A stretch of 64,000 nt of DNA, taken from assembly GCF_016937535.1 (NCBI RefSeq), contig NZ_JAFHKK010000005.1:1-64000 (forward strand), written 5' to 3'. This stretch comes from Sulfurospirillum tamanense. Lineage in GTDB: Bacteria > Campylobacterota > Campylobacteria > Campylobacterales > Campylobacteraceae. The notes beneath the pieces were generated by a model. The model was not told where the DNA came from. It did no database searches and saw nothing but the letters and a program-made list of their open reading frames with translations. Below are positions 1 to 62,661 of this stretch, piece by piece; the first letter of the stretch is position 1; every line of letters starts with the position of its first letter. Made by a program: the position numbers and the translations under genes.

Positions 1-260
1 GCATTGTTGTTTGGTTTTTGGGGTCCACCTCTTAAATCATGCAAAAAAATCGCATTTCCAAACATCTCTTTAATTAATAGGGCATTTTCACTATCAATTT
101 GCTCAATAATGGCATCAATCAATGGTGCAAGGTTCTTGCATGTAACAATCTTTTGATAATAGTTACATGTAAGACTAAGATGCTCTGATAGCGTCTCTTT
201 ATCGCTTCCTCGTGTGTGTGCGAAAAATCTCTCATCTATGCCAAAATCAGATAAAAGCAT
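1..260 (-). CDS. cas3: CRISPR-associated Cas3, N-terminal HD nuclease part (partial, runs off window)
   Basis: The open frame starts at an ATG at 260 inside the 3' end of cas5 (14-bp overlap) and continues past base 1, giving about 86 visible residues. They resemble the start of a Cas3 HD domain: an early FFAHTRGSDKETLSEHL segment and, near residue 74, the metal-binding HD pair in FLHDL. In the family this domain degrades single-stranded DNA after Cascade recruits the helicase. The residues after HDL are RGGPQKP, not the usual GKxNPxFQ; the +1 frame reads EVDPKNQ, so a frameshift here is possible. Position last in the effector operon supports Cas3. Confidence 0.75.
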   Translation of the reverse strand, partial: MLLSDFGIDERFFAHTRGSDKETLSEHLSLTCNYYQKIVTCKNLAPLIDAIIEQIDSENALLIKEMFGNAIFLHDLRGGPQKPNNN

Positions 261-1008
261 AATTGTTGCCCTCGCAAGATAAAACATCTTCGACATTTTC
301 AATTTCAATTTTATGATTTGTAAATACCAAGTTTGCATACTCATAAAAATGATGTTGTTCGTTAAGGCGAATAGGTGAGATTTCTTTAAAATAGTACGAT
401 AACTCTCCACGTGGTGGAGATTTTACTATTTGTAGTTTATCTTCTTCAAAAAGTGAAGATACTTTTTGCTCTTTGATAAAGGGGAAAAGCTCAACTAGCT
501 TCACTTCATCTATCTTTGCAGGATGGTCGTTTTTACCAAGATAAGGGATAAAAACTGACTTGCCGCCCAAGAAGTACTCACTGATTTTCTGAAAGACTTC
601 GCTTTCATCATCAAGTATCAATATCTGCCAAGAAGGATTTTCAAGCCACTGCTCACGAACAATAAGATTACCACCTTGCTCAAGGCTGGCATAACCAACA
701 CTATTGTTAAACGTTTGAATCTTCTTGCTGAAATAGCCATTTGGCGCAAGCGGCGTTATAGCCACTTTGAGCTCTTTTAGTTTTTCATAAAACTCGGGAT
801 AGCCCTCGTCATAGCCCAACTGGCCTTTTTTTAAAGTGCGATTCTTTTCAAAAAGTTGCGTATAGCCACCAAGCCCAATGACAGAACCCAAAAGCCCAAG
901 AAGTGCTGGCTTATGAATGTTATTGTAAGTAAAATACGCATAAGCATTCACATCAGGCTTCCTAAAACAAGCGGTTTTACCGCTTAGTTCAAACCTAAGC
1001 GCACGCAT
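247..1008 (-). CDS. cas5: Type I-B Cascade subunit Cas5
   Basis: The 253-residue protein opens with MRALRFELSGKTACFRKPDV followed by NIHKPALLGLLGSVIGLGGY, the typical Cas5 beginning: a RAMP strand, then the helix with the glycine-rich turn that grips the crRNA 5' handle. In the complex Cas5 caps the crRNA foot and contacts Cas8. It starts three bases after the cas7 stop and overlaps cas3 by 14 bp, so the genes are probably translated together. Gene order cas6-cas8-cas7-cas5-cas3 supports subtype I-B. The subtype call rests on order and resemblance only. Confidence 0.88.
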   Translation of the reverse strand: MRALRFELSGKTACFRKPDVNAYAYFTYNNIHKPALLGLLGSVIGLGGYTQLFEKNRTLKKGQLGYDEGYPEFYEKLKELKVAITPLAPNGYFSKKIQTFNNSVGYASLEQGGNLIVREQWLENPSWQILILDDESEVFQKISEYFLGGKSVFIPYLGKNDHPAKIDEVKLVELFPFIKEQKVSSLFEEDKLQIVKSPPRGELSYYFKEISPIRLNEQHHFYEYANLVFTNHKIEIENVEDVLSCEGNNYAFI

Positions 1009-1011
1009 GAT

Positions 1012-1917
1012 TTACAATTTCTCTTGGGTAAAAATATTAAATTTATCCAAAGATGTTTTCAAGCTAAGTTTGAAAGGATTAAAATAAACTTCAACACTTG
1101 CAAACTTGCCTTCGATAAGTTTTTCAAGCTCGCCAAGGTCAATCTCTCTTTTTTGACTATCAAACTTCACATAGTCACTCAAGTCTGGCAAGTAACATTT
1201 ATCGTCTTTACATGTAAGAAACAAAGCGAACTCATTTTCGCATCCAAATTTTGAGTTAGTGCTGTAGGCGGTAGCACTGACCAATGCAACTTTTTTAAAC
1301 TCTGCATAATCTGCTTCAGTATAGCCTTGAAACTCTGCACCTAAAAGGGTTTTGTATTCGTCATAATTTTTAGGGTTAATAGAGAAACCATAAAAATAAT
1401 GTGTTTCATCAACGGTGATTTTTGTACCAAGTGTTGATTGTTTTGCTTCTTTGCCTTTTTCTTCTGCTTTAGAGTCTGTAAAAGGGGATAATATGTCCTG
1501 AATTTCAATATTGGTATCGTCAAATTTGTTAAATCCTTGCCCAAATTGCACAGCACCAGTGATAGAAATATTTTGCCCTTCTACTGCAAATGTTGCACCA
1601 AAATTCTTAACGTCTACTGCCTTAAAAAGGTTGTTCATCACCTCTTTAGTTTCAGTTTTTTTATCAATATCACTAAAAAGAAGCTTATATCTTTCTCCTA
1701 ATTGATTTGGAACAATTGAACCCTTTTCCTCTTTCCAACTCTTAATAAAAAGTACTTTTTTACCCTCATTTTCCCACATTTTTTTCATAGGATACTTAAG
1801 TGCTTTATCGCTTCCAAAAATATCACCATTACTGGTTGATTTTGGTCTTCCCGTAAAATCCGCATTCCAATTTGCCATTTTTGCTTTGATTCCGATTACT
1901 CCGTAAACTCTTGTCAT
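1012..1917 (-). CDS. cas7: Type I-B Cascade backbone subunit Cas7 (Csh2-like)
   Basis: At 301 residues the protein has the usual length for the Cas7 backbone that polymerises along the crRNA spacer. The N-terminus [25 protein letters not shown] is a RAMP-like strand followed by a loop that names the substrate to be wrapped. A later [16 protein letters not shown] segment includes one copy of the TTACATGTAA palindrome (1208-1217). The ATG at 1917 is one base past the cas8 stop, with GAGGAG seven bases upstream inside cas8. Assignment comes mainly from size and position between cas8 and cas5. Confidence 0.82.
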
Positions 1918-61672: not shown

Positions 61673-61765
61673 CCAACAAGTCCAACTTGGCTAAATAGAG
61701 GCACTTTTAACCCCTTTCTTAGTGAGGGGTGGCTATACTTTTGCAAAACAACCAAGGAGGTAGCA

Positions 61766-61993
61766 ATGCTACACGAATACCGTGATATTATCTCAAAAAT
61801 AAAAGTAGAAAATGCCCATTTTGCAAAAATTTTTGAACGCCACAATGAACTTGATCAGAAGATTCTTGATGTTGAAGAGGGGCGTGAACACATGGAACAT
61901 TTTGAGCTTGAAACCCTCAAAAAAGAGAAGCTTCGTCTTAAAGATGAAGCCTACCAGATGATCTTGGCTTACAAAGAAGAAAAAAGCCTTTAA
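61766..61993 (+). CDS. YdcH/DUF465 family small coiled-coil protein
   Basis: This 75-residue protein is one helical hairpin: HEYRDIISKIKVENAHFAKIFERHNELDQKILDVE followed by LKKEKLRLKDEAYQMIL. The family is widespread with unclear role. AAGGAGG precedes the ATG. It converges with magIII, overlapping by four bases. Confidence 0.9.
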   Translation: MLHEYRDIISKIKVENAHFAKIFERHNELDQKILDVEEGREHMEHFELETLKKEKLRLKDEAYQMILAYKEEKSL

Positions 61994-62661
61994 TCTTCCA
62001 GGCTCAAGCCTGGAACCCCTTGCGTTATCTCCCCGCCTTTCACCTTTTCTTTACAAAACTCGACAATTTTCCCATGAAACCTAGCATAAAGTTCCACACG
62101 AGAGAGAGTTCTTTCGTATAGCTTTGCCACCTCCGCCTCTTCAAGTCCTTCTATGAGCCACTCTTGAAGCATTTCATAACTCTCAAAAGTATAGCCATAG
62201 TAACGCAACAATCTATTTGTATAGCTGTCCACTACCATGGCCTCTTTATAGCATGCGTAACACAAAATTGAATCAGCACTCTCCGGCCCGATGCCTTTTT
62301 GGGCAAGTAGCCACTCTCTACTCACCTCTTTAGCAAAAACTTCGAAGGTTTCAAACTCTTCTAAAATCCCCCTGGAGAGTCGTATTAAGGTCTTTGCTTT
62401 GGCATTAAAACAACCACTGGGACGAATGTAGTCTTTGAGTTTTTCTTCATTCATTTGCGCCAAAGTCTTTACATGTAACGCGTTTGCTTTACGCAGCAGC
62501 GCTAGGCTTTCTTCCACCCGCTCCCATTTGGCTTGCTGGGTTAACACCACCCCCACAACAACCTCAAATGTGCCACTGTTGGGCCACCAAAAGGGATCGC
62601 GAGATGTAGCGGCAAACCCTGCATTTTTCAACGCCCCCAAAAGCTCTATGCTACGCCTCAT
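61990..62661 (-). CDS. magIII: 3-methyladenine DNA glycosylase MagIII
   Basis: The 223-residue base-excision-repair enzyme is of the HhH-GPD family. Visible are FWWPNSGTFEVVVGVVLTQQ, the hairpin REWLLAQKGIGPESADSILCYA, and the catalytic aspartate in AMVVDSYTN. It lacks the iron-sulfur cysteines of Nth and resembles Helicobacter MagIII, which removes alkylated adenine. I start at the ATG at 62661, inside the 3' end of ymdB. A palindrome encodes ALHVK. Confidence 0.88.
   Translation of the reverse strand: MRRSIELLGALKNAGFAATSRDPFWWPNSGTFEVVVGVVLTQQAKWERVEESLALLRKANALHVKTLAQMNEEKLKDYIRPSGCFNAKAKTLIRLSRGILEEFETFEVFAKEVSREWLLAQKGIGPESADSILCYACYKEAMVVDSYTNRLLRYYGYTFESYEMLQEWLIEGLEEAEVAKLYERTLSRVELYARFHGKIVEFCKEKVKGGEITQGVPGLSLED

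Follow-up and report, generated by a model that had tools for sequence, protein, structure and literature searches.

An iterated palindrome in free-living Campylobacterales as a putative DNA-uptake self sequence

Introduction

To our knowledge, no function has been accepted for highly iterated palindromes (HIPs) since the description of HIP1. We describe here a palindrome, TTACATGTAA, and its 8-bp core, TACATGTA, both iterated in a 64,000-nucleotide stretch of Campylobacterales DNA (positions 1 to 64,000 of contig NZ_JAFHKK010000005.1, assembly GCF_016937535.1, deposited as Sulfurospirillum tamanense), hereafter called the window. HIP1 (GCGATCGC) and the alternative HIPs of cyanobacteria (Elhai 2015, PMC4390886) are likewise octamer palindromes iterated clade-wide and lost from single lineages, with deviations mostly at the outermost bases and centres matching the (inferred) targets of co-occurring methylases. 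They differ in belonging to the cyanobacterial phylum, in being reported as GC-rich – TACATGTA is 25% GC and is iterated even at a genome GC of 46% – and in being denser (1000-2000 per Mb, against about 430-600 per Mb for TACATGTA). Phased A-rich flanks, hosts lacking MutL and an imperfect association with a methylase (31 of 43 motif-rich genomes) set TACATGTA further apart from them.

Uptake sequences have been worked out chiefly in Pasteurellaceae and Neisseriaceae. The uptake signal sequence (USS) of Haemophilus and the DNA uptake sequence (DUS) of Neisseria resemble TACATGTA in occurring at hundreds of copies per Mb (1,465 USS cores in H. influenzae and 1,892 DUS in N. meningitidis; PMC7811141), in their intergenic excess and dialect-like variation, and in the presence of ComEC together with machinery of the type IV pilus (T4P) and type II secretion system (T2SS) type. 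The Haemophilus USS also has AT-rich flanking segments, which contribute to uptake (PMC7811141). TACATGTA is distinguished from both by being palindromic and two-sided, by the practical absence of single-mismatch copies, and by the apparent lack of an enriched functional class.

A third comparison comes from the same order, in which the CtsM-methylated RAATTY/RATTY mark of Campylobacter jejuni is a methylase-defined palindromic self mark. The methylated motif is required at the first step of uptake (PMC8468864), where it is read via a T2SS/T4P-type system and ComEC. In the present case, by contrast, iteration is a feature of the sequence itself, and a D12-class enzyme of inferred CATG type is the candidate methylase. 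For the C. jejuni motif, iteration beyond chance has not, as far as we know, been reported.

Among the papers searched, none describes either TACATGTA or TTACATGTAA as a motif iterated in bacteria. Because its density and GC content depart from those of HIPs we do not file TACATGTA among them, nor do we file it as a USS or DUS, since it has no oriented core and its uptake role is putative. It comes with knock-outs that arose naturally inside a single genus, with dialects, with a candidate for the methylating enzyme and with a competence pathway at hand, and the genera that carry it include culturable members that are not pathogenic, such that the function of iterated palindromes becomes directly testable.

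Iteration and architecture of the palindrome

The window contains 31 exact copies of TTACATGTAA, the number given by an earlier sequence-only reading, where dinucleotide shuffles predict 0.05; the first copy lies at 163-172 rather than starting at 173. That reading had staked its claim on the genome-wide count, and the claim survived: the whole genome (labelled G000; 2,456,696 bases in 63 contigs, the window being C5:1-64000) contains 1,059 copies of TTACATGTAA and a single copy of the reversed control word. The 8-mer TACATGTA is the conserved core, with 33 copies in the window and 1,480 in the 2.46-Mb genome. Further own-genome statistics were taken from 461 kb (loci L085-L104 plus the window) using simple open reading frame (ORF) calls, and in this sample there are 202 copies of TTACATGTAA against 0.47 expected, and 266 of TACATGTA against 3.4.

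Single mismatches to the 10-mer are at chance level at inner positions 2-9, and the outer positions 1 and 10 yield 3-12 copies per variant, so that one-base deviations fall mainly on the outer bases, as in HIPs of the cyanobacterial type. Pooled single mismatches to the 8-mer come to 110 where 156 are expected, a figure that the motif itself inflates somewhat. With inner mismatches at or below chance, the core is a sharp 8 bp of which decayed copies are practically absent, as would be expected if broken copies were efficiently replaced. The favoured extension is C-T/C-T-TACATGTA-A-A/G-G, and the longer form CTTTACATGTAAAG, to which the sequence-only reading had drawn attention, was seen nine times.

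Beyond the core – a perfect palindrome, without the oriented, non-palindromic core of USS and DUS – A-rich segments lie on both sides at -5..-9 and -17..-21 (A upstream, T downstream), separated by a gap and one helical turn apart. The A fractions for segment, gap and segment are 0.346, 0.239 and 0.328 in G000 (p = 8e-12 and 3e-10 versus the gap), and 0.400, 0.279 and 0.352 in G138, a genome of another family (p = 3e-11 and 7e-5). Intergenic copies share this pattern, which is thus not caused by coding constraint. A one-sided A-rich arm of the USS kind was rejected, as the left and right arms vary independently.

Most copies are genic. The ORF set used here places 23 of the window's copies in genes, not 24 as previously proposed, and only the two stop-free frames are used in the window (13 L-H-V, 10 x-T-C-K/N and none in the third). 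The own-genome sample has 97 L-H-V copies, 46 x-T-C-K/N and four others, along with 55 intergenic copies against 14.4 expected, a 3.8-fold excess. Five of 61 intergenic copies are extended into long dyads, for example a 24-bp palindrome at 9856. Spacing between copies is random (coefficient of variation 1.0) and copies per gene are Poisson, with 150 genes having at least one copy (153 expected) and 42 at least two (40 expected). Several genes have two to five copies, including priA, comEC, dnaE, xseA, and those for a photolyase and a PD-(D/E)XK nuclease; given the Poisson counts overall, the high numbers in priA (five) and comEC (four) are suggestive only.

Conservation in place and loss

Copies are kept at the same gene positions in relatives, including those of other families, far more often than the background of identical 8-mers between the compared genomes, which answers a check that the sequence-only reading had proposed. 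Between the window and G009, 15 of 17 sites are kept at orthologous positions (30% background, p = 1e-6); the corresponding values are 7 of 12 for G012 (9%, p = 2e-5) and, across families, 4 of 5 for G138 (8%, p = 2e-4). Comparisons of G138 with G316 (14 of 15 kept, 26%, p = 7e-8) and with G288 (11 of 14, 15%, p = 2e-7) give similar outcomes, and G248, which is 96.5% identical to G138, shares 160 of about 165 sites. The compared relatives are not independent of one another. Retention at the same gene positions across families suggests that the copies are probably a functional genome-wide tag.

Two genomes of one genus are natural knock-outs. G227, with 82% identity to G138, keeps 8 of 29 sites, which is exactly background, and has many one- and two-base changes at the others; in G192 a single site of 33 survives, against 7 expected (binomial, about 0.004). 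These losses show that maintenance is an active property that can be lost. Neutral decay would have left G192 with more sites than it has. We considered that whole sites might be gained as blocks, as one four-substitution difference between G138 and G248 falls exactly at a site, and dropped the idea because a larger sample contains 51 similar substitution clusters, of which a single one coincides with a site, and shows mostly single-base losses.

Distribution in the Campylobacterales

A survey of 349 genomes of the order shows iteration of TACATGTA in nearly all tested members of family f20 (Sulfurospirillaceae), with up to 1,727 copies, and in part of family f16 (200-850 copies); about 18 other families have counts at the level of the control. 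Within f1, the window's own family and possibly the Helicobacteraceae, the motif is dense in G012, in some members of genus g10 and in the window's genus (G000, G009), and the remaining genera lack it. Many free-living relatives of Campylobacter and Helicobacter carry 300 to 600 copies per million bases. Genus g31 of f20 corresponds to Sulfurospirillum – the sense in which that name is used below – 3.9 kb taken from G138's second replicon being identical to the S. diekertiae plasmid pSDCE1. A UvrB comparison gave closest hits of 71% (Nitratifractor, Sulfurovum) and was uninformative for naming the relatives. The genomes with the iterated motif span 26% to 46% GC, and base composition is therefore not its source. 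In G258, G286, G051 and G066 the first or last base is relaxed and the inner part kept, a dialect-like shift. The most strongly over-represented words in G010 are GTCATTGCGAGGA-like and apparently belong to another interspersed repeat, which is also present in G051.

A candidate adenine methylase and the uptake machinery

A D12-class N6-adenine methylase of approximately 325-340 residues, with a DPPY-containing catalytic domain (family alignment A1), is encoded in 31 of the 43 motif-rich but only 6 of the 24 motif-poor genomes (Fisher p = 3e-4, with kinship ignored, author-chosen thresholds and classes assigned by eye from counts and controls). In G000 the gene lies at L236:3025-3993. The enzyme is absent from the motif-losing genomes G192, G227 and G421. 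N6_N4 (CcrM-like) methylases were rejected as the cognate enzyme: seven motif-rich Sulfurospirillum genomes that are complete or nearly so lack them, and their presence does not track the motif.

The likely target of the D12 enzyme is CATG, the centre of the palindrome. In three motif-poor genomes, G165 (193385, 280 bases apart), G001 and G003, an ICEA endonuclease gene adjoins the methylase gene, as it does for D12-class CATG methylases of the M.NlaIII/M.HpyI type; the H. pylori iceA1 product is 52% identical to NlaIII, and hpyIM at that locus is a CATG-specific methylase (PMC2749054). It is from these neighbours that we infer CATG specificity, and methylation of the iterated sites would follow from it. 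The window's genome and Sulfurospirillum depart from the M.NlaIII/M.HpyI arrangement in having no ICEA gene, G421 excepted. G421, which has few copies of the motif left, carries an ICEA (NlaIII-family) gene at G421:C17:1430-1981 and no D12 profile match. In G420 an Eco57I-type methylase gene precedes the D12 gene, and the D12 enzyme is thus not a lone methylase everywhere.

Three further observations concern D12 genes. The chromosomal gene contains almost no TACATGTA in about 30 genomes (kinship ignored) while its flanking genes carry copies, which might be avoidance of the motif within the methylase's own gene. On the S. diekertiae plasmid (NZ_CP059996.1), 9 of 14 TACATGTA copies lie in or adjoin two genes (1692-2732 and 20494-21355), those of a D12 methylase (four copies) and a LexA-type regulator (five). 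A 678-residue protein of G192 (G192:C1:68004) with a cytosine-methylase-like N-terminus matches the D12 adenine methylase family.

ComEC is present in 23 of 23 tested genomes, including the copy in the window that bears four sites, and the T2SSF protein (T2SS/T4P inner-membrane) in 80 of 80, that of G000 being at G000:C34:17230. None of the 14 genomes tested has MutL, which 11 of 14 control organisms possess, and the methylation-directed mismatch-repair model of HIP1 (PMC4390886) accordingly does not carry over.

Interpretation

We place first, as a tentative account, the reading of the palindrome TACATGTA as a 'self' sequence for DNA uptake, perhaps helped by methylation as in C. jejuni. What puts it there is the sharp core, the phased A-rich arms, the intergenic excess, retention in place, loss in single lineages and the available competence pathway, and a density of the same order as that of USS and DUS was also counted in its favour. 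On this view, free-living Campylobacterales would recognize their own DNA by TACATGTA together with its extensions (T/A and C/G) and its phased, A-rich flanks. Within the T2SS/T4P-type competence machine, a DNA-binding component that is symmetric or two-sided would recognize and bend the motif on incoming DNA, which would then enter through ComEC. Where the D12 methylase is present, adenine methylation of the central CATG would probably strengthen the self mark, comparable to the role of CtsM in C. jejuni. Copies would build up and persist because DNA bearing them is preferentially taken up and recombined.

Several points weigh against this account. For these organisms, data on uptake or transformation were not found and no receptor was identified, and the uptake sequences known to us are all non-palindromic and read in a single direction. 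The motif-losing G192, G227 and G421 retain ComEC and T2SSF, and loss of either as the cause of motif loss is therefore rejected. Overall enrichment of the motif in particular genes is likewise not supported, counts per gene being Poisson. On the S. diekertiae plasmid there are 14 copies of TACATGTA against 22.6 expected, so that mobile DNA is just mildly depleted. The methylase is missing from motif-rich G236 (complete, 611 copies), G288 and G204, although single absences may be assembly gaps since several relatives are incomplete metagenome assemblies; and G154, G151, G410, G010 and G036 have the methylase but no motif.

The sequence-only reading had likened the motif to HIP1 and offered uptake, a methylase, a nucleoid protein or a selfish repeat as causes. 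The first three are the right candidates, with methylase co-occurrence, the presence of uptake genes and flanks resembling those of the Haemophilus uptake sequence in evidence. One rival, which we consider somewhat improbable, is a HIP1-like chromosomal function of methylated CATG in the TACATGTA context, such as the timing of replication, repair or recombination, and not uptake. The palindrome centre coincides with the inferred target of the co-occurring methylase, the same relation that Elhai found between HIPs and methylases (PMC4390886), the variation at outer bases matches HIP1, and the enzyme lacks an ICEA partner in the window's genome and in Sulfurospirillum. Yet both methylase classes tested, D12 and N6_N4, are missing from G236; the five methylase-bearing genomes named above show no iteration; a methylase recognizing 4 bp leaves the strict 8-mer and its phased flanks unexplained; and the version based on mismatch repair fails for want of MutL.

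We regard as unlikely that TACATGTA serves as a binding site at which a sequence-specific protein, of nucleoid or architectural type, bends the DNA about every 2 kb, for organization or segregation. Dyad symmetry with helically phased A-rich segments on both sides, even genome coverage with Poisson spacing, and in-place conservation across families would all suit such a site, but the close relatives G192 and G227 and most other families manage without the motif, a candidate protein was not found, and the intergenic excess, though compatible, is unexpected for a purely structural site. A functionless by-product of mutation or repair, through biased gene conversion or mismatch-repair bias, has been invoked for HIP1 (PMC4390886) and is very improbable here: it would require an exact 8-mer and flank preferences out to about 20 bp in organisms with no MutL, and the loss of sites at the neutral rate in the neighbouring G227 marks maintenance as active and losable. 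A selfish or mobile repeat, or an artefact of chance or composition, has only the high copy number in its favour and can practically be dismissed, given the window expectation of 0.05 and genome control count of 1, iteration of the same 8-mer from 26% to 46% GC, the absence of a larger repeat unit, random spacing and gene occupancy, and sites that are conserved and not moving.

If the motif does act as a DNA-uptake self sequence, it may – a more doubtful proposition – represent a third, independently evolved class of uptake sequence. Such sequences would be palindromes with phased A-rich arms and a symmetric reading, coupled to a central-CATG adenine methylase; the class would be ancestral to several free-living Campylobacterales families and repeatedly lost, including from Campylobacter and most Helicobacter. 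It would connect the classical uptake sequences both with the cyanobacterial HIPs and with uptake gated by methylation, as in C. jejuni. The motif might also serve to trace gene exchange among sulfur-cycling and organohalide-respiring bacteria.

Copies and genes along the window

The copies of TTACATGTAA, the two further copies of the core, and the two genes with most copies are as follows.

163..172, TTACATGTAA, intergenic
1208..1217, TTACATGTAA, genic, x-T-C-K
3813..3822, TTACATGTAA, genic, L-H-V
6897..6906, TTACATGTAA, genic, L-H-V, NMT1/PAS/GGDEF protein
9856..9865, TTACATGTAA, intergenic, centre of the perfect 24-bp dyad ATACGCTTTACATGTAAAGCGTAT (entry 9855-9866)
11850..11859, TTACATGTAA, intergenic, final copy ahead of the copy-free relaxase region
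20807..20816, TTACATGTAA, genic, L-H-V
21083..21092, TTACATGTAA, genic, L-H-V
24271..24280, TTACATGTAA, intergenic
26885..26894, TTACATGTAA, intergenic
29973..29982, TTACATGTAA, genic, L-H-V, histidine kinase
31695..31702, core 8-mer TACATGTA, outer base deviates
31958..31967, TTACATGTAA, genic, x-T-C-K
35590..35599, TTACATGTAA, intergenic
36390..36399, TTACATGTAA, genic, L-H-V
40608..40617, TTACATGTAA, glcD-like gene, L-H-V
42743..44008, minus strand, comEC/rec2 (DNA-uptake channel), four copies; NCBIfam ComEC models, PF03772
42931..42940, TTACATGTAA, comEC, L-H-V
43741..43750, TTACATGTAA, comEC, L-H-V
43795..43804, TTACATGTAA, comEC, L-H-V
43918..43927, TTACATGTAA, comEC, L-H-V
46666..48528, minus strand, priA, five copies; NCBIfam PriA
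46712..46721, TTACATGTAA, priA, x-T-C-K
46880..46889, TTACATGTAA, priA, x-T-C-K
47504..47513, TTACATGTAA, priA, Cys341 of the first zinc-binding CxxC
48188..48197, TTACATGTAA, priA, x-T-C-N
48344..48353, TTACATGTAA, priA, x-T-C-K
52024..52033, TTACATGTAA, intergenic
53515..53524, TTACATGTAA, ppk1, x-T-C-K
55789..55798, TTACATGTAA, genic, x-T-C-K
55891..55900, TTACATGTAA, genic, x-T-C-K
56656..56663, core 8-mer TACATGTA, outer base deviates
59018..59027, TTACATGTAA, intergenic
61446..61455, TTACATGTAA, argJ, x-T-C-N
62469..62478, TTACATGTAA, genic, L-H-V

The copy at 47504 does specify the first cysteine of PriA's first zinc-binding CxxC, as the sequence-only reading had it. The dyad ATACGCTTTACATGTAAAGCGTAT at 9856 is accompanied by a T-run on the minus strand, and this copy may therefore double as a terminator. 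No stretch of the own-genome sample free of TACATGTA is longer than the interval 11860-20806, where 8,957 bases separate neighbouring copies; this interval contains a TrwC-type relaxase/helicase gene (11981-15427) and one large unassigned ORF, and is probably an acquired conjugative segment. Roughly 100-130 bases upstream of priA (46510-46640) have 71-92% identity to many separate contigs of G009, and thus appear to belong to an interspersed repeat family unrelated to the palindrome.

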